A DNA stretch of 64,000 nucleotides, from the NCBI RefSeq assembly GCF_004792515.1, contig NZ_CP038865.1:1682501-1746500 (forward strand). Direction: 5' to 3'. This document shows, one piece after another, positions 3,419-58,763 of the stretch. Each line of letters begins with the position of its first letter. Position 1 is the first letter of the stretch. The notes beneath the pieces were generated by a model. The model worked only from the letters and a program-made list of their open reading frames with translations, was not told the origin of the DNA and made no database searches. The translations under genes and the position numbers were made by a program. The stretch is from Vagococcus xieshaowenii. GTDB taxonomy: Bacteria > Bacillota > Bacilli > Lactobacillales > Vagococcaceae.

Positions 3419-3468
3419 AAAAAATCTATCCTAACACCCGGTAAGTCGTGTTAAGATAGATTTTTTTA
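3419..3468 (-). terminator. Terminator after the first PTS operon
   Basis: A 15-bp stem, AATCTATCCTAACAC paired with GTGTTAAGATAGATT (one mismatch), is flanked by A-runs on the left and T-runs on the right. It could stop transcription from either side. It overlaps the stop codon of the DUF3284 gene. Confidence 0.85.
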
Positions 3469-3879
3469 ATACGCGGCTTCCATAGATGCTAACATTTTTA
3501 TTAGTTGTTTTTTCTTGAATGGTGCTAAAAACATGCCAAACATCATGTCATTCGCTTTTTGAAGTACACCGTGTGAGATCATTTCTTCTGTATACGTGAC
3601 TTCACATTGTTTATCTGAAAGTGCTTTGATCGCATAACTAACCGTAAAATCATTGCGAACCGTTGAGGTATTAAAACGATAAAGTTCATTTTTTTGTGCT
3701 GCCTCAATGCTAATTTTTGCCCGACTATTTTTTGAAAATTCTTTAACGTAAGAGTAGTTCGTTAACTGATGTTCTTTAACCGTTTCACCGGTACTTTTAC
3801 GAATATCAAATAGGACGGAATTAATCACTTGCTGGTAAAAAAATTCTGCTGGCACATTTAAGGTCTTAACGATTTTCAT
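3466..3879 (-). CDS. DUF3284 family protein (copy 1)
   Basis: A 137-residue soluble protein resembling the DUF3284 family, which recurs beside PTS genes in lactic acid bacteria; its biochemical role is unknown to me. It starts MKIVKTLNVPAEFFYQQV and has a mixed alpha/beta composition with no signal peptide. It overlaps the preceding 64-residue membrane-protein gene by 14 bp, so the two are probably translationally coupled. It is the last gene of the operon before a strong terminator. A second copy at 8475-8888 differs at only three residues (Arg68 to Cys and two near the C-terminus). Confidence 0.75.
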   Translation of the reverse strand: MKIVKTLNVPAEFFYQQVINSVLFDIRKSTGETVKEHQLTNYSYVKEFSKNSRAKISIEAAQKNELYRFNTSTVRNDFTVSYAIKALSDKQCEVTYTEEMISHGVLQKANDMMFGMFLAPFKKKQLIKMLASMEAAY

Positions 3880-4060
3880 TTGATTTCACCTCGGTTTGTT
3901 TTGCTTTTTTGTTGGCTCTAAATGAGAGAATACCACCTACAATGATTAAGGTAACAGCTGTCGTCATTAGCAAGAAATCATACTCTAACGTCACTCGATT
4001 CACGCAAAACATAAACATTATCAATCCTATACTAATTAAAAACAAGCCATTCTTCATCAT
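3866..4060 (-). CDS. Small two-helix membrane protein (copy 1)
   Basis: 64 residues with two predicted transmembrane helices (about 4-22 and 29-48), separated by a short loop and followed by a basic hydrophilic tail (RANKKAKQTEVKSNENR). It overlaps the DUF3284 gene and follows the 72-residue gene in the same order as in the second operon, where the protein is identical in sequence. No known family recognised. The constant linkage to the PTS suggests a role at the membrane connected with sugar uptake, but this is only context. Confidence 0.65.
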   Translation of the reverse strand: MMKNGLFLISIGLIMFMFCVNRVTLEYDFLLMTTAVTLIIVGGILSFRANKKAKQTEVKSNENR

Positions 4061-4090
4061 TATCTTTCTCTCCTTTAATTCATCTGTTGA

Positions 4091-4309
4091 CTACGCTGGT
4101 GTACATTGGAAGAACAAAACACTTCCCCAAGGTTGTGCTTTGATACTTTCTTTAGCTACTTTAACTGCCTCTTCAGCGCTTGCTCCTTTTACTTCAAATA
4201 ATAATTTGATACCTTTTTTCTCTTTATAAGTAAACGTCACATTTTCCGTTAAACTTTCTAATAATTCAATCACTTTATCTTGTTGCATCGCCACATTTAC
4301 TGCAATCAT
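4091..4309 (-). CDS. Conserved 72-residue PTS-linked protein (copy 1)
   Basis: Starts MIAVNVAMQQDKVIELLESL. A GGAGGAAG ribosome site lies directly upstream of this ATG, so longer upstream frames are not used. It is a compact alpha/beta protein ending GSVLFFQCTPA, without signal or membrane segments. It is first of the three small genes after the IIC gene. Just upstream on the minus strand is a hairpin (GGGG..GCAGT/ACTGC..CCCC, about 4334-4364) that may mark an RNA processing or attenuation point. The copy at 9100-9318 differs at two residues. No family name known to me. Confidence 0.65.
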   Translation of the reverse strand: MIAVNVAMQQDKVIELLESLTENVTFTYKEKKGIKLLFEVKGASAEEAVKVAKESIKAQPWGSVLFFQCTPA

Positions 4310-4440
4310 GGTTCTTCCTCCTATAATAATAACAGGGGTCGCAGTAAAAAGCACTGCTTCCCCTTGATTTTTATTAACCAATTCTTTTATTTTCTAATGA
4401 CCTTTTTGATGAAGAATGGATCTTAAAGTACTTTACTTAA

Positions 4441-4700
4441 ACGCTCACTCAAGCACTTTTTAATCTGGCATTCGCGAGCATCCCTTCGAACATAATGTCT
4501 ACCCTTTCAAAAACATGAGAAGCTGTTTTTGAATGGTTTTCATTATTTTTCGGGGATAAACGCTCACTCAAGCACTTTATGTAATCCGGCTTTTGAGTGC
4601 AGTCCTTCGGAAATATCTCTTAACAGTTTAAAAATTTGAGAAACAATTTTTAACTGTCCTTCGATATTTCTCAGGCCTACCCGCACTCGCAAGCACTTTA
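4441..4700 (-). repeat. Tandem pair of structured 3'-end repeats, locus 1
   Basis: Read on the minus strand, boxes of the form AAAGTGCTTGmGnGnGCG lie at about 4681-4700, 4561-4579 and 4442-4461. They delimit two units of about 140 bp. Each unit contains an inverted-repeat core followed by a GCCGGAT- or GCCAGAT-like box. The first box begins with the TAA stop of the IIC gene. The unit next to the gene pairs GAAATATC with GATATTTC and ACAGTT with AACTGT. The far unit pairs TTCAAAAAC with GTTTTTGAA. Confidence 0.85.
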
Positions 4701-6131
4701 TTGTTCTTCCATTTTGTTTGCTGCGATAACGAATGGTGCGTAGATAATGAATGAGACAACCATACAGATTAATGTTACGATTGGTGCTCTCCAGTCTGCT
4801 CCTGTTGCTAAGAATGATAATAATAGTGGTGGTGTTACCCATACTACTTGTTGAGAAACAGGGTTAACTAAGTCCATTGTTGTTGCAAAGTAACCAATTG
4901 CTGTTGTTACTAATGGTGCTAATAAGAATGGAACAAACATGATTGGGTTTAATACGATTGGTAATCCAAACATAACAGGCTCGTTGATGTTGAAGATACC
5001 AGGTCCTAATGATAATTTACCGATTGTTTTGTAATCTGCACGTTTAGAGAAGATTAAAATGGCAATAATTAAAACGATTGTACCACCTGAACCACCAAAC
5101 ATTGTGTAAGCGTCAAATGAACCACGTACCCATTTGTATCCTTCAGCTTTAACTAACTCAACGCCACCTTCGTTAAACAAGTTAACGTTTTTAATTTGGG
5201 CAACTCCCCAAATTCCTTCTAAAACTGGCGCTAAAACGTTCATTCCATGAATTCCGAAGAACCAGAATAATTGAATAAAAATTGTTACTAACACAACTGC
5301 TCCAAAACCTTGAGATAATCCTAATAATGGTTCAGCGATTGTTTTTTGTACCCAATCGATGAATAACATACCAGTACCTTTAGTAAAGAAGTAATTGAAA
5401 ATACCAACTACATATAATGCTACTAATGCTGGAATAATCGCTGCGAACGCTTTACTTACAGCAGGAGGTACTTGTTCTGGCATTTTGATTGTAATATTTT
5501 TATTCATTAATTTAGAAAAAATAACTACTGCTACAAATCCTAAAATCATTGCAGTAAAGAACGCATTACCATTTAAGTGATCAAGTTTCAACCAACCCCA
5601 AGCATTATTAGTTACTTGGTCAAATACTGTGACAGCTCCTGTTGCTGCATCTTTTACTTCGACTGTTTCTACTGCTGATCCTACTGCTTTTAAGGCATCA
5701 ATTGCTTTAGTGCCTAATTCTCCTTGTGGCACTTGAACGGCAGCTGGTGCTGAGAACGCAATTCCTTGAATCAACGCCCCTACAGAAACTAATCCACCGG
5801 CTAAGTCATTGACACCGTATGCTCGAGCAATGTTATACCCTAGTGAGAAAGCAAACATCAAACCGGCAATTGCTAATGTCCCATTCCATACATAACCATT
5901 AATTCCAATAATTTCTTTAAACACTGGAATAGTATTAGCATCATAACCGTCAATAAACTGTGTTGGTAAATCACGAATGATTGCATTAATTAATACCGCC
6001 ATTGATCCTGCCATTGTTACTGGCATCGTACCGATGAAAGCATCTCTTAAAGCAACCAAATGTTTTTGATTACCAATTTTTCCTGCGACTGGAAGAATAT
6101 ATCTTTCCAACCAAGTTGTTAAAGCATTCAT
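4698..6131 (-). CDS. PTS lactose/cellobiose-family transporter subunit IIC (operon A)
   Basis: A 477-residue integral membrane permease that would translocate and help phosphorylate a beta-linked disaccharide or oligosaccharide. About ten hydrophobic segments are visible. The IIC-specific stretches are PVAGKIGNQKHLVALRDAF near the start, FGIHGMNVLAPVLEG in the middle, and GPGIFNINEPVMFGLPIV, the substrate-site loop. It is third in its operon after IIB and IIA. A 30-bp element before it, containing AATAATC..GATTATT, is shared with the second operon. The paralogue at 9741-11174 is mostly identical but differs in a periplasmic/loop region around residues 130-170. Substrate not determinable; cellobiose or chitobiose are reasonable. 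Confidence 0.9.
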   Translation of the reverse strand: MNALTTWLERYILPVAGKIGNQKHLVALRDAFIGTMPVTMAGSMAVLINAIIRDLPTQFIDGYDANTIPVFKEIIGINGYVWNGTLAIAGLMFAFSLGYNIARAYGVNDLAGGLVSVGALIQGIAFSAPAAVQVPQGELGTKAIDALKAVGSAVETVEVKDAATGAVTVFDQVTNNAWGWLKLDHLNGNAFFTAMILGFVAVVIFSKLMNKNITIKMPEQVPPAVSKAFAAIIPALVALYVVGIFNYFFTKGTGMLFIDWVQKTIAEPLLGLSQGFGAVVLVTIFIQLFWFFGIHGMNVLAPVLEGIWGVAQIKNVNLFNEGGVELVKAEGYKWVRGSFDAYTMFGGSGGTIVLIIAILIFSKRADYKTIGKLSLGPGIFNINEPVMFGLPIVLNPIMFVPFLLAPLVTTAIGYFATTMDLVNPVSQQVVWVTPPLLLSFLATGADWRAPIVTLICMVVSFIIYAPFVIAANKMEEQ

Positions 6132-6230
6132 GCTTTTCCCTCCAAAACTTTTTTATATTTTAATAATCTTTCGATTGATTATTAACACAATTAATTAAAA
6201 ACCTACCAACAAACTTTTTTATCCTTTTAT

Positions 6231-6545
6231 TTATGCTGAAATTTTGCGATGAACATCAATAATTTCTTTTGCTAAATCCGTAAAAGCAATCGATGTCATT
6301 AAGTGATCTTGACTGTGAACTGTCAATAACGTAATGTCTAATTTCTCACCTTGTGCTTCTTTTGTTAATAATCCCGTTTGTGAATGATGTGCTTGTACTA
6401 AAGCTTCTTCAGCCGCTTTGATTTTAGCATCAGCTTCGTCAAAGTTTCCTGTTTTGGCTGCATAAATTGCTTCCATTGCATCACTCTTGGCATTTCCTGA
6501 GTTAATGATTAAGCCCATCACTGCTTCTAAATATTCTTGATCCAT
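6231..6545 (-). CDS. PTS lactose/cellobiose-family IIA component (operon A)
   Basis: A 104-residue cytoplasmic phosphocarrier of the lac family. The family forms a three-helix-bundle trimer that takes phosphate from HPr on a histidine and passes it to IIB. The active motif VHSQDHLMTS is present: His77 is the likely phosphorylated residue and Asp80 the likely metal ligand. The earlier QAHHSQT motif (51-57) is also typical. Ribosome site GGTGG lies upstream. It lies between IIB and IIC in the sigma54-dependent operon. Confidence 0.93.
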   Translation of the reverse strand: MDQEYLEAVMGLIINSGNAKSDAMEAIYAAKTGNFDEADAKIKAAEEALVQAHHSQTGLLTKEAQGEKLDITLLTVHSQDHLMTSIAFTDLAKEIIDVHRKISA

Positions 6546-6684
6546 TTAATTTCCACCTTTTACTTTTTCAATTGCTACAAATTTCTTGACGTTTCACCTC
6601 ATCAAGATAGAGAAATGAATAATAGTACTTTCGTGCCTTCACATCGTATGACTTGAAGCTAAACGTACTCTCAATCTCTTTGCT

Positions 6685-7005
6685 TTATCCTTCGATTAGT
6701 TTTAAAGCTTGTGCTAGGACATTTTCACCATTCATCATGCCGTAATCTTTCATATCAATCACTTCTAGTGGAATGCCTTTGCCTGCTAATTTTGATTCGA
6801 ATTGACCTTTCATGAAGCGAACTTGTGGGCCTAATAATAAAACATTAACATCTTTAGCCGCTAAGCTGTTGTCCGCATCTGATGCTGATACTGCGAAGAT
6901 ATCCGTATCAATCCCTTGAGCTTCTGCTGCTTTTTGCATTTTTGTTACTAACATTGAGGTGCTCATCCCTGCTGAACATACTAACATGATTGTTTTTGTT
7001 GCCAT
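6685..7005 (-). CDS. PTS lactose/cellobiose-family IIB component (operon A)
   Basis: A 106-residue cytoplasmic phosphotransferase of the low-molecular-weight phosphatase fold. It carries the P-loop CSAGMSTSML with the phospho-accepting Cys10, which takes phosphate from IIA and donates it to sugar bound in IIC. First gene of operon A, with an AGGAGG site directly before the ATG and a sigma54 promoter about 50 bp upstream. Two close paralogues occur in the second operon (11316-11636 and 12087-12407). Confidence 0.93.
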   Translation of the reverse strand: MATKTIMLVCSAGMSTSMLVTKMQKAAEAQGIDTDIFAVSASDADNSLAAKDVNVLLLGPQVRFMKGQFESKLAGKGIPLEVIDMKDYGMMNGENVLAQALKLIEG

Positions 7006-7055
7006 TATATTTTCCTCCTAATAGATAATTAATATTTTTCTTTTCACTCTTATAT

Positions 7056-7073
7056 AAGCAAGTTGCGTGCCAA
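7056..7073 (-). promoter_or_regulatory. Sigma54 (-24/-12) promoter of PTS operon A
   Basis: The minus strand reads TTGGCACGCAACTTGCTT, matching the RpoN consensus TGGCAC-N5-TTGC with the essential GG and GC dinucleotides. The same 18 bases precede the second PTS operon. Transcription should start near 7046. Confidence 0.92.
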
Positions 7074-7080
7074 CTTACAT

Positions 7081-7120
7081 TTATATTGAAAACGTTATTA
7101 TAACGGTGTTTTCAATATAA
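7081..7120 (-). promoter_or_regulatory. 40-bp interrupted palindrome upstream of the sigma54 promoter
   Basis: Perfect 13-bp arms (TTATATTGAAAAC / GTTTTCAATATAA) enclose a second palindrome (CGTTAT-T-ATAACG). It ends 7 bp upstream of the -24 element, so it is a candidate enhancer for the LevR-type activator or an operator for another regulator. No equivalent sits in front of the second operon. Confidence 0.5.
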
Positions 7121-7145
7121 ATGCGCTTACACTATCAACGTAAAC

Positions 7146-7179
7146 AAAAAGTACACACAGTTATTTGTGTGTACTTTTT
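7146..7179. terminator. Bidirectional terminator-like hairpin between operons
   Basis: A perfect 14-bp stem AAAAAGTACACACA/TGTGTGTACTTTTT with a 6-nt loop; A- and T-runs are built into the stem. It lies upstream of the operon A control region and would insulate it from transcripts of the gene at 7404-8327. Confidence 0.75.
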
Positions 7180-7342
7180 GTTATTTAATATACATTTATT
7201 ACAAATAACCTTCACCAAAACAACGATAAATAAAGTAAAAAACCAATAACATTGTTATTAAACGTTCGTTTAATTTCTTGTTTATTGTTTTCATTATTAA
7301 AATAAGAAATATTAAAATAACATGAAAATAGAAATAATACGT

Positions 7343-7387
7343 AAAAAAAACTATCAAGCTTCGATAAAGATCGAAAATTGATAGTTT
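7343..7387 (-). terminator. Terminator after the TIM-barrel-like gene
   Basis: Outer stem AAACTATCAA/TTGATAGTTT plus inner stem TTCGAT/ATCGAA, followed on the minus strand by a run of seven or more T. It lies 17 bp downstream of the stop at 7404. Confidence 0.88.
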
Positions 7388-7403
7388 GATAGGTATCTTT
7401 TGA

Positions 7404-8327
7404 TTAACGATTCACTGATCTCGCAAAACGTGAAACAGTATGGCGTTCTCCGCGAATAGCATCTGATAGTTCTTTAATATTTTTAATTCCTACTAATCCC
7501 ATATTGGCATCTCCAATATGCTGTATATCAACGCCTAAAATTTTATTTTTTAATGCAATTTGGCGAATCGTTTCTGGATGAGAACTTTCTTGAGACGTTC
7601 CTATCGCACTCATCACTAACTTATCTTGCTGATGACAATAACTTACTACCTCACCTACCATCTCCTCGGTAATCCCCCAGACACTTCCTACTGCAGGTAC
7701 CAAGACAATATCAGCTCCCGCCTCTATAAATTGCTTAGCCGATTCAATACTCACCACTGGCTCATCTACACCCGCACTATGCATTTTCCCTGCTATAATG
7801 ACACCGTCAAAATGTTCTTTAGCAATTTTTATATTTTCAGCAATTCTTTGATTTGTAACTCCTGTACCTGGATTTCCTGTTAACAAGATAAAATCTAAGC
7901 CAATTTCATTAGCACGTTTAAATGTTTCAACAGATGCTGTACGACCTTTTGAAATCTCAATAATATCAGATGTCATATCAGCGTTAGGATCAACAGGCTC
8001 TAAGTTAGCTCCAATAGGTAGCCCCACTAATTTTTTTAAGTCACGAATAGCATTATCGTTGGGTTTAGCGTTCCATGCAGCATATTGCCCTTCGTATAAA
8101 CTTAAAATAATTGGTTCAAACGCATCAAAACCATTTAATAAAATCATATCAGCACCATAAGCTCGTGCTAACTCACTTGACGTAATATCTCCTACTATCG
8201 GTTCATGCATAACGACATTTTCACTTAATACGACACGCCCTTCACTGGCTTTAATACTTTGAATTAAGTCTTCCTTTGAAAACCCAGCAATTTCACTTGC
8301 ATTAGCACTAATTAATCTTTTTACCAT
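7404..8327 (-). CDS. PTS-associated TIM-barrel-like protein (DUF7916-type)
   Basis: 307 residues, cytoplasmic. I recall relatives beside PTS genes in Firmicutes, named DUF7916 or, doubtfully, haloacid-dehalogenase-like; no reaction is known to me. Barrel-like strands and phosphate-site-like loops are visible: ADMILLNGFD, FILLTGNPGTGVTN, GVIIAGKMHSAG, ADIVLVPAVGSVWG, MSAIGTSQESS and GVDIQHIGDA. I chose the ATG at 8327 because AAAGGTGG lies 8 nt upstream; an in-frame GTG four codons earlier is inside that site. It follows the second PTS operon after a hairpin. A paralogue (63149-64000) precedes another IIC gene, supporting a role in processing the imported sugar phosphate. Confidence 0.75.
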   Translation of the reverse strand: MVKRLISANASEIAGFSKEDLIQSIKASEGRVVLSENVVMHEPIVGDITSSELARAYGADMILLNGFDAFEPIILSLYEGQYAAWNAKPNDNAIRDLKKLVGLPIGANLEPVDPNADMTSDIIEISKGRTASVETFKRANEIGLDFILLTGNPGTGVTNQRIAENIKIAKEHFDGVIIAGKMHSAGVDEPVVSIESAKQFIEAGADIVLVPAVGSVWGITEEMVGEVVSYCHQQDKLVMSAIGTSQESSHPETIRQIALKNKILGVDIQHIGDANMGLVGIKNIKELSDAIRGERHTVSRFARSVNR

Positions 8328-8397
8328 TTTATTATCCACCTTTAGTTATATTATCGTTAATATCGGCTATTTTGGGAACACTTTTTTTGGAAAATAA

Positions 8398-8424
8398 GAG
8401 CTGTGACAAAGACTGTCACAGCTC
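8398..8424 (-). terminator. Terminator of TGTGACA family, after PTS operon B
   Basis: An 11-bp perfect stem GAGCTGTGACA/TGTCACAGCTC with a 5-nt loop, followed on the minus strand by a modest T-rich tail. It is one of six terminators in the window with the same stem core. Confidence 0.75.
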
Positions 8425-8474
8425 CTTTCCCTTTAATCAGCCTTACTGTCCTAAACATATAAGAGCCTTCTTAA

Positions 8475-8888
8475 TTAATACGAAGCTTCCATAGATACCA
8501 ACATTTTTATTAGTTGTTTTTTCTTGAATGGTGCTAAAAACATGCCAAACATCATGTCATTCGCTTTTTGAAGTACACCGTGTGAGATCATTTCTTCTGT
8601 ATACGTGACTTCACATTGTTTATCTGAAAGTGCTTTGATCGCATAACTAACCGTAAAATCATTGCGAACCGTTGAGGTATTAAAACAATAAAGTTCATTT
8701 TTTTGTGCTGCCTCAATGCTAATTTTTGCCCGACTATTTTTTGAAAATTCTTTAACGTAAGAGTAGTTCGTTAACTGATGTTCTTTAACCGTTTCACCGG
8801 TACTTTTACGAATATCAAATAGGACGGAATTAATCACTTGCTGGTAAAAAAATTCTGCTGGCACATTTAAGGTCTTAACGATTTTCAT
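8475..8888 (-). CDS. DUF3284 family protein (copy 2)
   Basis: 137 residues, nearly identical to the protein at 3466-3879; the three differences are Arg68 to Cys and two small changes in the last seven residues. It is the last gene of the second PTS operon, overlaps the small membrane-protein gene by 14 bp, and is followed by a hairpin terminator. Function unknown; the family is repeatedly linked to PTS operons in Lactobacillales. Confidence 0.75.
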   Translation of the reverse strand: MKIVKTLNVPAEFFYQQVINSVLFDIRKSTGETVKEHQLTNYSYVKEFSKNSRAKISIEAAQKNELYCFNTSTVRNDFTVSYAIKALSDKQCEVTYTEEMISHGVLQKANDMMFGMFLAPFKKKQLIKMLVSMEASY

Positions 8889-9069
8889 TTGATTTCACCT
8901 CGGTTTGTTTTGCTTTTTTGTTGGCTCTAAATGAGAGAATACCACCTACAATGATTAAGGTAACAGCTGTCGTCATTAGCAAGAAATCATACTCTAACGT
9001 CACTCGATTCACGCAAAACATAAACATTATCAATCCTATACTAATTAAAAACAAGCCATTCTTCATCAT
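8875..9069 (-). CDS. Small two-helix membrane protein (copy 2)
   Basis: 64 residues, identical to the protein at 3866-4060, with two hydrophobic helices and a basic C-terminal tail. It lies between the 72-residue gene and the DUF3284 gene of the second PTS operon and overlaps the latter. Unknown function; exact conservation next to diverging permeases suggests homogenisation by recombination. Confidence 0.65.
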   Translation of the reverse strand: MMKNGLFLISIGLIMFMFCVNRVTLEYDFLLMTTAVTLIIVGGILSFRANKKAKQTEVKSNENR

Positions 9070-9099
9070 TATCTTTCTCTCCTTTAATTCATCTGTTGA

Positions 9100-9318
9100 C
9101 TACGCTGGTGTACATTGGAAGAACAAAACACTTCCCCAAGGTTGTGCTTTGATACTTTCTTTAGCTACTTTAACTGCCTCTTCAGCGCTTGCTCCTTTTA
9201 CTTCAAATAATAATTTGATACCTTTTTTCTCTTTATAAGTAAACGTCACATTTTCCGTTAAATTTTCCAATAATGCAATTACTTTATCTTGTTGCATCGC
9301 CACATTTACTGCAATCAT
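9100..9318 (-). CDS. Conserved 72-residue PTS-linked protein (copy 2)
   Basis: Starts MIAVNVAMQQDKVIALLENL with a GGAGGAAG ribosome site; differs from copy 1 at two residues (Glu to Ala, Ser to Asn). The upstream minus-strand sequence again contains a GC-rich hairpin (AACGGGGT..ACCCTGTT), though with different bases. First of the small genes after the operon B permease. No family recognised. Confidence 0.65.
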   Translation of the reverse strand: MIAVNVAMQQDKVIALLENLTENVTFTYKEKKGIKLLFEVKGASAEEAVKVAKESIKAQPWGSVLFFQCTPA

Positions 9319-9484
9319 GGTTCTTCCTCCTTATAATGAAAATAACAGGGTCTGTGATAATTACTACCACTCACCCCGTTATCATCATATTTTTCCCTAA
9401 TTGGGGGTTTTTGTTGCTTATGCTCTTTTATTGCTTAGTGTTACTCATATCTTCGTCATTCTGCTCATATTACTCAGAAGTTAA

Positions 9485-9743
9485 CCGCGTTCTCAAGCAC
9501 TTTTTTTATCCGGCTTTCGGACGCAACTTCTTCGGTAATATGTCAGAACTCTCAAAAATTGTTACACAATTTTCGTCATTCTGCTCATATTACTCAGAAG
9601 TTAACCGCGTTCTCAAGCACTTTTTTATCCGGCTTTCGCGAGCATCCCTTCGAACATAATGTCTACCCTTTCAAAAACATGAGAAGCTGTTTTTGAATAG
9701 TTTTCATTATTTTTCGGGGATAAACGCTCACTCAAGCACTTTA
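9485..9743 (-). repeat. Tandem pair of structured 3'-end repeats, locus 2
   Basis: Conserved boxes start at 9485, 9605 and 9725, spaced exactly 120 bp. The first on the minus strand begins with the TAA of the operon B IIC gene. The unit next to the gene has the TTCAAAAAC/GTTTTTGAA core, almost identical to the far unit of locus 1. The far unit pairs AAAATTGT with ACAATTTT and GGTAATATG with CATATTAC. A segment of about 50 bp (from cgtcattctgctcat to the box) is directly repeated around 9450 and 9570. Confidence 0.85.
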
Positions 9744-11174
9744 TTGTTCTTCCATTTTGTTTGCTGCGATAACGAATGGCGCATAAATGATGAAGGCTAC
9801 GATCATACAGATTAATGATACGACCGGTGCTCTCCAGTCTGCTCCTGTTGCTAAGAATGATAGTAATAGTGGTGGTGTTACCCATACTACTTGTTGAGAT
9901 ACTGGGTCAACCCATCCATTAATTGTTGCGAAGTAACCAATAGCTGTTGTTACGATTGGTGCTAACAAGAATGGAACGAACATGATTGGGTTTAATACGA
10001 TTGGTAAACCAAACATAACAGGTTCGTTGATATTAAAGATACCAGGTCCTAATGATAATTTACCGATTGTCTTGTAATCTGCACGTTTAGAGAAGATTAA
10101 GATGGCAATAATTAAAACAATTGTACCACCTGAACCACCAAACATTGAGAACGCATCAAATGAACCACGTACCCATAGATAACCGTGTTCTTTAACCATC
10201 TCAACGCCACCTTCGTTAAACAAGTTAACGTTTTTAATTTGGGCAACTCCCCAAATCCCTTCTAAAGCTGGTGCTAAAACGTTCATTCCATGAATTCCGA
10301 AGAACCAGAATAATTGAATGAAAACAGTGATAATCATTACTGCACCAAAACCTTGAGATAACTCTAGTAATGGATCAGCGATTGTTTTTTGTACCCAGTC
10401 GATAAATAATACATCTGTAAAACGTGTGAAGAAGTAATTAAACATTCCCACAGCATATAATGCAACTAATGCTGGAATAATCGCTGCGAATGCTTTACTT
10501 ACAGCAGGAGGTACTTGTTCTGGCATTTTAATTGTAATGTTTCTGTTCATTAATTTAGCAAAAATAATAACTGCTACAAATCCTAAAATCATTGCTGTGA
10601 AGAAGGCATTACCATTTAAATGATCAAGTTTCAACCAACCCCATGCGTTATTGGTTACTTGTTCAACTAATTTCATGTTCCCTGTAGCAGTATCTAAAAC
10701 TTCTGTTTGTGAAATAACAGAACCGGCATTTGTTAATAATTCAGTTGCTTTTTCTCCTAATTGACCAGGCTCTAAGTTGACAGTTGCTGGTGCTGAGAAC
10801 GCAATCCCTTGAATCAATGCCCCTACAGAAACTAATCCACCGGCTAAGTCATTGACACCGTATGCACGGGCAATGTTATACCCTAGTGAGAAAGCAAACA
10901 TCAAACCGGCAATTGCTAATGTCCCATTCCATACATAACCATTAATTCCAATAATTTCTTTAAATACTGGAATGGTATTAGCGTCGTAACCATCAATAAA
11001 CTGTGTTGGTAAATCACGAATAATCGCGTTTAATAATACCGCCATTGATCCTGCCATTGTTACTGGCATCGTACCGATAAAAGCATCCCTAAGTGCGACT
11101 AAGTGTTTCTGGTTTCCAATTTTCCCTGCGATTGGCAGAAGAAACTTCTCCAACCAAGCTGTCAATGCGTGCAT
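9741..11174 (-). CDS. PTS lactose/cellobiose-family transporter subunit IIC (operon B)
   Basis: A 477-residue membrane permease paralogous to the operon A permease, with the same length and the same conserved stretches (FGIHGMNVLAPALEG and GPGIFNINEPVMFGLPIV). Differences cluster in the first 15 residues, around residues 130-170 and in loops near 245-260 and 330-345, which could change substrate choice. It ends MEEQ, and the stop codon forms the first bases of a structured repeat. The upstream 140 bp contain the AATAATC..GATTATT hairpin shared with operon A. Fourth gene of the operon after IIB, IIA and a second IIB. Confidence 0.9.
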   Translation of the reverse strand: MHALTAWLEKFLLPIAGKIGNQKHLVALRDAFIGTMPVTMAGSMAVLLNAIIRDLPTQFIDGYDANTIPVFKEIIGINGYVWNGTLAIAGLMFAFSLGYNIARAYGVNDLAGGLVSVGALIQGIAFSAPATVNLEPGQLGEKATELLTNAGSVISQTEVLDTATGNMKLVEQVTNNAWGWLKLDHLNGNAFFTAMILGFVAVIIFAKLMNRNITIKMPEQVPPAVSKAFAAIIPALVALYAVGMFNYFFTRFTDVLFIDWVQKTIADPLLELSQGFGAVMIITVFIQLFWFFGIHGMNVLAPALEGIWGVAQIKNVNLFNEGGVEMVKEHGYLWVRGSFDAFSMFGGSGGTIVLIIAILIFSKRADYKTIGKLSLGPGIFNINEPVMFGLPIVLNPIMFVPFLLAPIVTTAIGYFATINGWVDPVSQQVVWVTPPLLLSFLATGADWRAPVVSLICMIVAFIIYAPFVIAANKMEEQ

Positions 11175-11315
11175 GCATCATCCCTCCATTAATATACTTA
11201 TTTTTTCAATAATCTTTCGATTGATTATTAACGCAATAATCTACAACAACAAACATTTTTCTTTTTTAAAACGCATCAAGTACTACAGACATAATAGTTA
11301 AGTACTTCCCAGTAT

Positions 11316-11636
11316 TTATTCACCAATTAATTTCATTGCTTGTGCTAGGACATTTTCACCGTTCATCATACCGTAATCTTTCATATCGATGACTTCTAAC
11401 GGAATGCCTTTGTCTGCTAATTTAGCTTCGAATTGGCCTTTCATGAAGCGAACTTGTGGGCCTAATAATAAAACGTTGACGTCTTTAGAAGCTAAACTGT
11501 TGTCTGCATCTGATGCTGATACTGCAAAGATATCTGTATCAATTCCTTGAGCATCTGCTGCCTTTTGCATTTTTGTTACTAGCATTGAGGTGCTCATCCC
11601 TGCTGAACATACTAACATGATTGTTTTTGTTGCCAT
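11316..11636 (-). CDS. PTS IIB component, second copy in operon B
   Basis: 106 residues with the CSAGMSTSML P-loop and Cys10. It is nearly the same as the first-gene IIB of the same operon (12087-12407), so operon B encodes two IIB proteins for one IIA and one IIC. The ribosome site AGGAGG is preserved. Upstream (about 11690-11740) is an intercistronic hairpin with arms TTTATATAGA/TCTATATAAA, a possible RNA processing site separating IIB-IIA from IIB-IIC. Two active IIBs could serve different permeases, or one could be redundant. Confidence 0.92.
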   Translation of the reverse strand: MATKTIMLVCSAGMSTSMLVTKMQKAADAQGIDTDIFAVSASDADNSLASKDVNVLLLGPQVRFMKGQFEAKLADKGIPLEVIDMKDYGMMNGENVLAQAMKLIGE

Positions 11637-11687
11637 TATATTTTCCTCCTAATAATAGTGTTATTCTTAAATAGTACACGCTTTCAT

Positions 11688-11741
11688 CTATCTTTATATA
11701 GAAGAAAACGAATATTTTTGCTTTCCTCTATATAAAATGAA
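11688..11741 (-). other. Intercistronic hairpin between IIA and second IIB
   Basis: Ten-bp arms TTTATATAGA and TCTATATAAA, with GAAA/TTTC continuing inside, separate the two halves of operon B. There is no T tail, so RNA processing or stabilisation is more likely than termination. This is inference. Confidence 0.4.
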
Positions 11742-11749
11742 AAGTTAAA

Positions 11750-12061
11750 TTAAGCAATTTTACGATGTAAGTCAATAATTTCTTTAGCTAAGTCTGTAAA
11801 TGTAATAGACGTCATTAAGTGATCTTGACTATGAACCGTTAATAATGTGATTTCTAATTTTTCACCTTGGGCTTCTTTTGTTAACAAACCTGTTTGTGAA
11901 TGATGGGCTTGTACCAGTGCTTCTTCTGCAGATTTTATTTTAGCATCTGCTTCTTCAAAGTTTCCGGCTTTCGCTGCATAAATCGCTTCCATTGCGTCGC
12001 TTTTTGCATTTCCTGAATTAATGATTAGCCCCATCACTGCTTCTAAATATTCTTGATCCAT
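11750..12061 (-). CDS. PTS lactose/cellobiose-family IIA component (operon B)
   Basis: 103 residues starting MDQEYLEAV. The GGTGGAG site 6 nt before this ATG sets the start; a longer frame 12 codons upstream has no such site. His77 in VHSQDHLMTS is the predicted phosphorylation site. It is about 90 percent identical by eye to the operon A IIA. It lies 25 nt after the first IIB gene. Confidence 0.92.
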   Translation of the reverse strand: MDQEYLEAVMGLIINSGNAKSDAMEAIYAAKAGNFEEADAKIKSAEEALVQAHHSQTGLLTKEAQGEKLEITLLTVHSQDHLMTSITFTDLAKEIIDLHRKIA

Positions 12062-12086
12062 ATGATTCTCCACCTTTTTACTTTTA

Positions 12087-12407
12087 TTATTCTCCAATTA
12101 ATTTCAATGCTTGTGCTAGGACATTTTCACCATTCATCATGCCGTAATCTTTCATATCGATGACTTCTAACGGAATGCCTTTATCTGCTAATTTAGCTTC
12201 GAATTGGCCTTTCATGAAACGAACTTGTGGGCCTAATAATAAAACATTGACGTCTTTAGAGGCTAAACTATTATCTGCATCTGATGCTGATACTGCAAAG
12301 ATATCCGTATCAATTCCTTGATCATCTGCTGCTTTTTGCATTTTTGTTACTAACATTGAGGTGCTCATCCCTGCTGAACATACTAACATGATTGTTTTTG
12401 TTGCCAT
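12087..12407 (-). CDS. PTS lactose/cellobiose-family IIB component (operon B, first gene)
   Basis: 106 residues, P-loop CSAGMSTSML with Cys10 as phospho-acceptor. First gene of operon B, 50 bp downstream of a sigma54 promoter and just downstream of the LevR-type regulator gene, which is the probable activator. Very close to the two other IIB copies in the window. Confidence 0.93.
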   Translation of the reverse strand: MATKTIMLVCSAGMSTSMLVTKMQKAADDQGIDTDIFAVSASDADNSLASKDVNVLLLGPQVRFMKGQFEAKLADKGIPLEVIDMKDYGMMNGENVLAQALKLIGE

Positions 12408-29369: not shown

Positions 29370-29522
29370 GTCTACCACCTCATTAATAAAAACAACATCT
29401 GATGATTAACTATTGTTCTCTTTTTTTCTTCTCATTATAGTAAACATTAGATGTTTCACAACCCGTTTTTAGCTAATTGGAAAAGATTAAGGAAAAACTT
29501 AATTTATCACATATGTTCTAAA

Positions 29523-29562
29523 AAAGAGGCTCTATGACAAAATTCTGTCACAGAGCCTCTTT
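29523..29562 (-). terminator. Terminator of TGTGACA family, after the repeat array
   Basis: A 17-bp stem AAAGAGGCTCTATGACA/TGTCACAGAGCCTCTTT (one mismatch), loop aaattc, A-run to the left. It ends the methionine gamma-lyase-like gene transcript after the structured repeats. Confidence 0.88.
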
Positions 29563-29582
29563 ACAAAATAAACAGTACTCCA

Positions 29583-29853
29583 AAAGCAACCCACACCTTC
29601 AAGCACTTTACCCAATCCGGCTTTCAGGTACTGCTTTTTCGGCAATATGTTGTAACTCTCAAAAATTGTTGCACAATTTTCATTGTCACACGCATATTGC
29701 TCAAAAGCAACCCACACCTTCAAGCACTTTACCCAATCCGGCTTTTGAGTGCAGTCCTTCGGAAGTTTCTCTTAACCGTTTAAAAATTTAAAAACAATTT
29801 TTAGCCGTTCTTCGATATTTCTAAGGCCTAAACGCACTCGCAAGCACTTTTAA
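29583..29853 (-). repeat. Tandem pair of structured 3'-end repeats, locus 3
   Basis: Conserved boxes (minus strand AAAGTGCTTG...) lie at about 29590-29611, 29710-29731 and 29833-29853. The last overlaps the TAA stop of the gene at 29850. The unit next to the gene resembles that of locus 1 (GAAGTTTC..GATATTTC-type core, TTTTTAGC loops). The far unit resembles that of locus 2 (AAAATTGT-tgc-ACAATTTT core). The segment caaaagcaacccacacc is directly repeated 120 bp apart. Two short open frames here are chance products. Confidence 0.85.
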
Positions 29854-58222: not shown

Positions 58223-58696
58223 TTATTTTCTCTTATTTTTTTGTCCTGTAAACGGATCGTATTCTTCGAATAAGGTTAATTGATCCGCTACATAATCTTC
58301 CGTTATTTGATTTCTAATATATTCTTCTATCTGTTTTTTATTTCGACCTACCGTATCTACATAATATCCTCTACACCAAAATTTTCTATTCCCATAACGA
58401 TATTTCAACTCGGCATGTCTATCGAATATCATTAAACTACTTTTTCCTTTTAAATATCCTATAAATTCCGAGACACTCGTTTTTGGTGGAATACTTACCA
58501 ACATATGGATATGATCTTTACATGCGTTAGCTTCAATAATTTCTACACCTTTTCTGTCACATAATGCTCTTAATATTTCTCCGATACTTTTTTTATACTT
58601 TCCATATATGATTTGGCGTCGATATTTCGGTGCAAATACTATATGATACTTACATTTCCAGGTTGTATGTGATAAACTTTGATTGTCTTTTCTCAT
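58223..58696 (-). CDS. tnpA: IS200-family transposase TnpA
   Basis: 157 residues, complete. HUH motif HIH (62-64, in DHIHMLVSIPP) and catalytic Tyr126 (in IEEYIRNQ) are both present. WKCKYHIVFAPKYRR and KFWCRGYYVDTVG are family signatures. The ATG at 58696 has AGGAGG 8 nt upstream; an earlier in-frame start overlaps that site. The ribosome site is buried in a long hairpin (58706-58763), the known way IS200 limits its own expression. It appears intact and potentially mobile. Confidence 0.93.
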   Translation of the reverse strand: MRKDNQSLSHTTWKCKYHIVFAPKYRRQIIYGKYKKSIGEILRALCDRKGVEIIEANACKDHIHMLVSIPPKTSVSEFIGYLKGKSSLMIFDRHAELKYRYGNRKFWCRGYYVDTVGRNKKQIEEYIRNQITEDYVADQLTLFEEYDPFTGQKNKRK

Positions 58697-58704
58697 AAAA
58701 GACA

Positions 58705-58763
58705 CCTCCTAAATGATTTGATGTTGTGGTCGGGAAACCAACTTTATCTTATCATTTTAGGAG
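58705..58763 (-). promoter_or_regulatory. Hairpin hiding the tnpA ribosome site and blocking read-in
   Basis: CTCCTAAATGAT (58706-58717) pairs with ATCATTTTAGGAG (58751-58763), one bulge. On the minus strand the second arm contains the AGGAGG of tnpA. On the plus strand the hairpin is followed by eight T, so it is also a terminator against antisense transcription. Confidence 0.8.

Follow-up and report, generated by a model that had tools for sequence, protein, structure and literature searches.

A covarying hairpin repeat, very likely of the EFAR superfamily, forms tandem arrays mostly right behind stop codons in Vagococcus

The 64-kb window, by which we mean the whole stretch of DNA analysed here, contains six full hairpin units of 119-121 nt as well as three 3'-truncated copies. 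Every one of them lies on the minus strand, and they are distributed over three arrays, each composed of two full units followed by one 3'-truncated unit. Array 1 begins with the TAA stop codon (4698-4700) of a PTS EIIC gene (PF02378, 4698-6131, minus strand). Its unit 1 (4579-4699; 114.2 bits with the covariance model described below, fold z -5.10) has a core of the GGCC...GAAATATC type and its unit 2 (4460-4578; 91.2 bits, fold z -5.19) a core of the ATCCCC...TTCAAAAAC type; the 3'-truncated unit (4438-4459), recognised by sequence, has the same 5' arm as unit 2. Array 2 begins with the TAA stop codon (9741-9743) of a second PTS EIIC gene (9741-11174, minus strand). Unit 1 of this array (9624-9742; recognised by the covariance model, fold z -5.58) is 97% identical to unit 2 of array 1, unit 2 (9504-9623; 118.1 bits, fold z -5.86) has the core type GTAATATG / AAAATTGT, and the 3'-truncated unit (9452-9503, by sequence) repeats the 5' arm of unit 2. 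Array 3 begins with the TAA stop codon (29850-29852) of a gene for a PLP enzyme of the Met_gamma_lyase family (PF06838, 29850-31148, minus strand). Here the upper stem of unit 1 (29731-29850; 103.3 bits, fold z only -0.38) has decayed; it is followed by unit 2 (29610-29730; 116.8 bits, fold z -3.87), by a 3'-truncated unit with the 5' arm of unit 2 (29580-29609, by sequence) and by an intrinsic-terminator-like hairpin read by eye on the same strand (GTGAC...GTCAT and a T-run, 29518-29560). The box AAGTGCTTG, carried by the six full and the three 3'-truncated units, occurs 9 times in the window compared to 0.70 expected by shuffling.

A first-pass annotation of this DNA had described six tandem-paired units of 120-140 bp at three loci. 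The six units are real but measure 119-121 nt, and the three 3'-truncated copies had been missed. The upstream genes were correctly described as two PTS permeases and an unrelated PLP enzyme, the three core inverted repeats quoted were found again by eye, and the placing of the first box at the stop codon of the preceding gene holds for all three arrays, where the stop codon overlaps or touches the first unit. The number of loci has to be read with care: the PTS loci of arrays 1 and 2 are two copies of an operon of about 5 kb, in which 300-nt stretches are 79-98% identical, and the window thus shows two, not three, independent sites. The duplicated operon spans window positions 3466-12407 and includes the EIIC gene, a DUF3284 gene and others; a 106-aa gene is present three times in the same interval (6685, 11316 and 12087). 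Elsewhere in the window, a 612-aa ORF at 429-2267 contains repeats with a 9-nt period, from 484 to at least 933; both strands of this region have long open frames.

The distribution of the units was analysed with a covariance model, R1, built from 23 units of the genome of the window (G000) and of its sister species (G003). At E<=0.01, R1 gave 25 matches in G000 and 46 in G003, counts that include fragments and two weak matches on the reverse strand. G001 and G002, the two other species of the genus, gave none. Further copies in the genome, which the first-pass annotation had called for, are therefore present, and the absence of matches from two of the four species of the genus indicates that the element is not essential. 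At the level of the family, 11 of 29 genomes and 6 of 8 genera matched R1 at E<=0.001; at the level of the order, R1 matched 60 of the 295 genomes sampled, which fall in 20 of 74 genera, at E<=1e-4, copy numbers in this last set being lower bounds because 12 candidates were scored per genome. The exact junction pattern of the boxes was found in two of 118 genomes, G000 and G003. An Rfam search of the window returned a tRNA and a TPP riboswitch as the only hits above the gathering cut-off, and over 4400-4720 nothing came near a gathering score. A search of a limited literature collection returned nothing on the family in Vagococcus and nothing on an RNA role of EFAR.

Folding of the individual units was compared with that of shuffled sequences. 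Five of the six window units fold far better than their shuffles (z -3.87 to -5.86); the remaining one (29731-29849) reaches z -0.38 and is equalled or bettered by 67 of 200 shuffles. RNAalifold predicts 22 pairs in an alignment of 86 units (A4, 85 distinct rows counted). Compensatory change on both sides was found at 22 of 22 scored pairs and 97.0% of 1854 cells are paired (85 distinct rows); these counts are to be read with two biases, since A4 was fitted to R1 and leans to its structure, and kinship among the rows inflates covariation. The covariation score is 0.724 compared to 0.220 in shuffled alignments, none of 500 shuffles reaching the observed value, and it falls to at most 0.129 when the partners are slid along the alignment. 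The terminal box covaries as well, as in GTGCTT/AAGCC and GTGATT/AATCC. Unpaired features recur by eye, namely a bulged U near the base, a bulge of 4-5 nt (GTTTA) and GA/CGA internal loops. Combined, these results show that one long rod-like hairpin is common to the units and that its paired letters covary. Significant covariation in the cores, on which the first-pass annotation had staked its reading, is strong, and the view that the fold is under selection while the sequence changes is supported by the 22 compensatory pairs.

The same annotation had proposed that the fold matters as RNA. That the fold is kept was borne out; RNA over DNA was favoured on moderate evidence, the asymmetry between the two kinds of mismatched pair. 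Paired columns contain 55 G-U and 18 A-C combinations, and 25 and 6, respectively, after thinning to less than 80% identity (35 sequences). The background ratios themselves depart from 1, being 206:170 when the letters are shuffled and 11481:7329 for unpaired columns picked at random, and the priors of the covariance model favour G-U over A-C. As strand-symmetric mutation would equalise the two, RNA of the sense strand is likelier to be the folded molecule.

The position of the arrays was analysed relative to coding sequences. In G000 and G003, 31 of 37 arrays begin no more than 12 nt from the stop codon of a gene in sense orientation with 90 or more codons, and 14 of these 31 start precisely at position +2 (T|AA or T|AG). 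In none of the 37 does a gene on the opposite strand end 12 nt or less from the last full unit. Among the six remaining arrays, two follow 61-codon sense ORFs at +11 and +12, for two (L086 and L093) the only ORFs are short ones at -38 and -35, and for two (L073 and L075) there are none. L075 and L093 look orthologous by their flanks and unit, and neither begins at a stop codon. The tie to stop codons predicted by the first-pass annotation is thus found well beyond the window. Outside the genus, the same distance limit of 12 nt holds for 26 of 39 arrays sampled from the family's other genera and for 13 of 53 from the order's other families; both samples are listed high-scoring matches rather than random draws, and the latter includes a few weak reverse-strand matches.

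Arrays were further sorted by their terminal boxes with a simple script, which left 13 arrays unassigned and placed 3 in a third type. Of 41 arrays with end-type i (A[AG]AGTG...CCGGA), 33 abut a stop codon (-4 to +7) and 27 are tandem; this type also abuts stop codons in G025, from another genus of the family. End-type ii (mostly GAGGTTGTGAC...CCGTTTA, EFAR-like) abuts a stop codon in 14 of 66 arrays and is tandem in 9. A terminator-like hairpin lies downstream in 38 of 41 type i and 59 of 66 type ii arrays, numbers that are descriptive as they come from a lenient finder with no background control. The third end-type, GAAAAGCT...AAGCTAGACA, was seen in longer tandem arrays (L162 and L169, in G038 and G133, with six and four model matches, respectively), which hold at least one further core type. 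In conclusion, the arrays of the genus lie mostly in sense orientation right behind a stop codon, often with a terminator-like hairpin downstream. Among the upstream genes are some that, from their translated ends, we take by eye to be leuS, alaS, thrS, polA, nrnA and mnmG.

To see where the stop codon comes from, loci can be compared with and without units. The leuS-like gene was matched in 29 genomes and read at 26 loci, all of which end at the same codon, 23 of them with VNIVAN*. Units lie behind it in G000 and G003 only, and in G001 and G002 a terminator-like hairpin directly follows the stop codon in their place. Because all 26 loci end alike, the stop codon there is native, and a stop codon supplied by the element, with a shortened gene, was ruled out at this gene. 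In the five relatives of the PTS EIIC gene that were read, the protein is 1-6 residues longer at its end and no unit is present at that stop codon (two weak matches lie elsewhere, E about 0.01); a small loss of the PTS gene end is possible from this comparison.

Linkers of about 4 nt separate type i units. Adjacent linkers within an array are identical in 9 of 21 pairs compared to 0.94 expected, and identical linkers occur despite different core types in L075 (ACAC three times), L071, L098 and window array 3. The end of the gene also matches the first linker, with P 0.00095 in G000 and G003 (n=22) and P 0.00005 in G025 (n=11), values obtained by shuffling within genomes with orthologous arrays included. 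When the three letters before A-R-A were compared alone with the linker, P was 0.048 and 0.023, respectively, and positions -9 to -6 gave no significant excess; linkers and flanks mismatch in many arrays. Duplication-like flanks are clearest in L204, bounded on each side by ACTAACC, and in L208, bounded on each side by AAAATAG with the stop codon within it; in these two arrays the match may be partly chance because part of it is the conserved 3' end of the element itself (CTA). A duplication-like repeat was also seen at a non-stop site, L197.

Comparison of the same site between species gives an indication of the order of events. The PTS array of G003 and window array 2 both have the composition [type 2][type 3][truncated 3], and window array 1 is [type 1][type 2][truncated 2]. 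The PTS gene of G003 is nearer to the gene of array 1 than to that of array 2 (97.5% vs 85.4% of residues). It looks as if a type 1 unit had entered array 1 later, adjoining the stop codon. Unit content at one site also differs between the species behind the potD-like and nrnA-like genes. Several core types exist and mixed arrays occur, and units 97% identical to each other lie behind unrelated genes in G003. Behind the mnmG-like gene, the unit is identical at 119 of 119 positions between species (L070 1979-2101, L100 1583-1705), beside a gene with 80-96% identity per 100 nt over 1400 nt, about 88%; this is a single case. Taken with the linkers, these comparisons suggest that units have inserted repeatedly next to the stop codon, each time duplicating a short target, and that the truncated copy at the end of an array is its oldest.

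The sum of the data is in our opinion best explained, with somewhat better than even confidence, by a mobile structured repeat whose RNA fold is selected, whose arrays grow on the side of the stop codon and whose rods tune the 3' end of the mRNA. The units would be transcribed as the tail of the mRNA and selection would act on the fold of this RNA. The element would spread as a miniature insertion element, a new unit entering between the stop codon and the resident unit and duplicating a short stretch of the gene end; arrays would grow on the stop-codon side, and the 3'-most, truncated copy would be the oldest. The most likely role, to judge from position and fold, would be that the rods shield or tune the mRNA 3' end and leave the protein unchanged. 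A more demanding version, in which insertion is addressed to stop codons, duplicates the stop region each time and leaves arrays ordered in time, the most recent unit lying next to the stop codon, appears rather doubtful to us. If true, it would describe a polarised, self-addressed array with a geometry like that of CRISPR or integron arrays, but made of RNA rods in mRNA tails.

Several other explanations were weighed against this reading. The units might be purely selfish DNA, the hairpin mattering only as folded single-stranded DNA during transposition and the tails of genes being places that tolerate insertion. The patchy presence across genomes of the genus and family, the copies common to unrelated loci and the duplication-like flanks all fit, and PMC3733652 names EFAR among the MITEs of enterococci. 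A palindromic DNA element indifferent to transcription would, however, be expected neither to favour G-U over A-C nor to lie in sense orientation at stop codons, and the carriers G003, G022, G024, G025 and G027 have no match to a Y1 transposase; we consider this account rather improbable. Much the same weight is given to the opposite view, that the element is a domesticated regulatory RNA, kept by the host behind housekeeping genes as a 3'-UTR stabiliser of mRNA or an element coupled to termination. Several sites are filled in both G000 and G003, and the fold is kept, with one unit, behind the mnmG-like gene, more conserved than the gene itself. Against it, the unit content of the PTS, potD-like and nrnA-like sites varies by species and G001 and G002 have no units at all.

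A somewhat stronger competitor, yet still one we would not bet on, is growth of the arrays by unequal crossing-over or slippage, with gene conversion of the cores, in place of repeated insertion. Identical or near-identical neighbours in L089, L072 and L107 speak for it, as does the last truncated copy, which repeats the 5' arm of the preceding unit in all three window arrays; truncated last copies could indeed come from unequal exchange and decay. It does not account for the same linker between neighbours of different core types, nor for the resemblance of the linker to the gene end. Mobilisation as REP/BIME elements by a REP-associated tyrosine transposase is the least credible of all. REPs are also found near stop codons and GTAG REPs often supply a TAG stop (PMC3733652), and Y1_Tnp genes are present in the carriers G000, G008 and G010; the length of the units and the five other carriers speak against it.

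The search for a mobilising enzyme covered two profiles. Y1_Tnp has matches in 15 of the 29 genomes of the family and none in the five carriers named above, and mobilisation by an IS200/RAYT enzyme was rejected on this ground. Reverse transcriptase was likewise discarded, RVT_1 being found in 11 of 29 genomes and in none of the carriers G003, G024 and G008. A MITE has terminal inverted repeats, a target-site duplication and a mobilising transposase; of these, duplication-like flanks were seen, and the Y1_Tnp and RVT_1 searches gave no mobilising enzyme. An IS200-like Y1 transposase gene is located in the window at 58223-58705; G000 has six Y1_Tnp matches in total and G003, with more hairpin units, has none.

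Mobile replicons were also searched. Array 1 in the window's own form has no match among plasmid and phage sequences. A relative from another genome matches 88 plasmid records (77 Enterococcus, 6 Lactiplantibacillus), with copies located for example behind groL and aspT. When empty sites between strains were sought with the flanks of two such plasmid-borne relatives, 7 and 1 records were recovered, all with the element. Contigs labelled 'Listeria phage LM 4-14-1' and 'LM 4-11-1' carry hairpin elements and may be mislabelled.

These results bear on a wider group of repeats. The E. faecalis repeat appears to be part of a structured family that is present in at least 60 of 295 genomes of the order, covaries and has no Rfam entry. 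One branch of it is placed with single-nucleotide precision after stop codons, and the genes concerned apparently include many with housekeeping roles. Two questions thereby become testable, whether the RNA fold affects mRNA 3' ends or translation termination, and how insertion could be directed to stop codons with no visible transposase; the covariance model can be used for annotating enterococcal 3' ends.

Of the known systems, EFAR/Efa-1 of Enterococcus faecalis comes closest. R1, which draws on units of the window's genus alone, matches contigs labelled with E. faecalis as host six times at E<1e-6, over a total of 294 kb; these are six stretches from four unannotated records deposited as 'Enterococcus phage Efs 1-1-1' (records OR8465xx-OR8494xx), and as the records were picked for BLAST hits the density of matches is biased upward. 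The contigs encode relatives of bacterial housekeeping proteins and are therefore bacterial. Copies in the E. faecalis contigs consist of a 122-nt hairpin followed, in five of six, by a second hairpin of about 45 nt, about 170 bp together; three of the five second hairpins have a clear T-run, and the sixth copy has a weaker hairpin only. EFAR is reportedly a repeat of about 170 bp with 16 sequence types, said to be assembled modularly from these types and to integrate into stem-loop targets, most of the target being lost. The several core types and mixed arrays found here match this modular assembly. Efa-1 is described in PMC2267715 as a 163-bp intergenic repeat with 65 (18) copies and two adjacent stem-loops. 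By size, copy number and the double hairpin, the copies in the E. faecalis contigs would correspond to EFAR/Efa-1. The window units very likely form a branch of the EFAR superfamily, and the guess of an EFAR-type element in the first-pass annotation fits. The two differ in arrangement: in the window's genus, units abut the stop codon and are strung together in tandem, 1-3 full units to an array, with linkers between them and often a truncated copy at the end. The next hairpin is often set apart from the last unit by a truncated unit and additional sequence. Their end boxes are mostly AAAGTGC/GCCGGATT, compared to GAGGTTGTGAC or GAGGTCGGGAC/CCGTTTA in E. faecalis.

Other structured repeats are more distant, as judged from their descriptions. 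BOX of Streptococcus pneumoniae (PMC3049150) is also short and modular, its tandem modules vary in number and its RNA is predicted to fold; there, one boxA-boxB(n)-boxC composite makes up the element, whereas here each unit is a complete hairpin. SPRITE, from the same species (PMC3049150), is structured, enriched at gene 3' ends and terminator-like, but is a single 18-bp duplex with a U-rich tail, unlike the window units. REP/BIME elements are palindromic, lie near coding regions and may supply a stop codon (PMC3733652); they are 20-40 bp long, carry a GTAG or CGTC tag and are often linked to a RAYT, unlike the units in the five carriers with no Y1_Tnp. The window units very likely belong to the known EFAR/Efa-1 superfamily; what is new is a branch that abuts stop codons and forms tandem arrays with array-specific linkers resembling the gene end.
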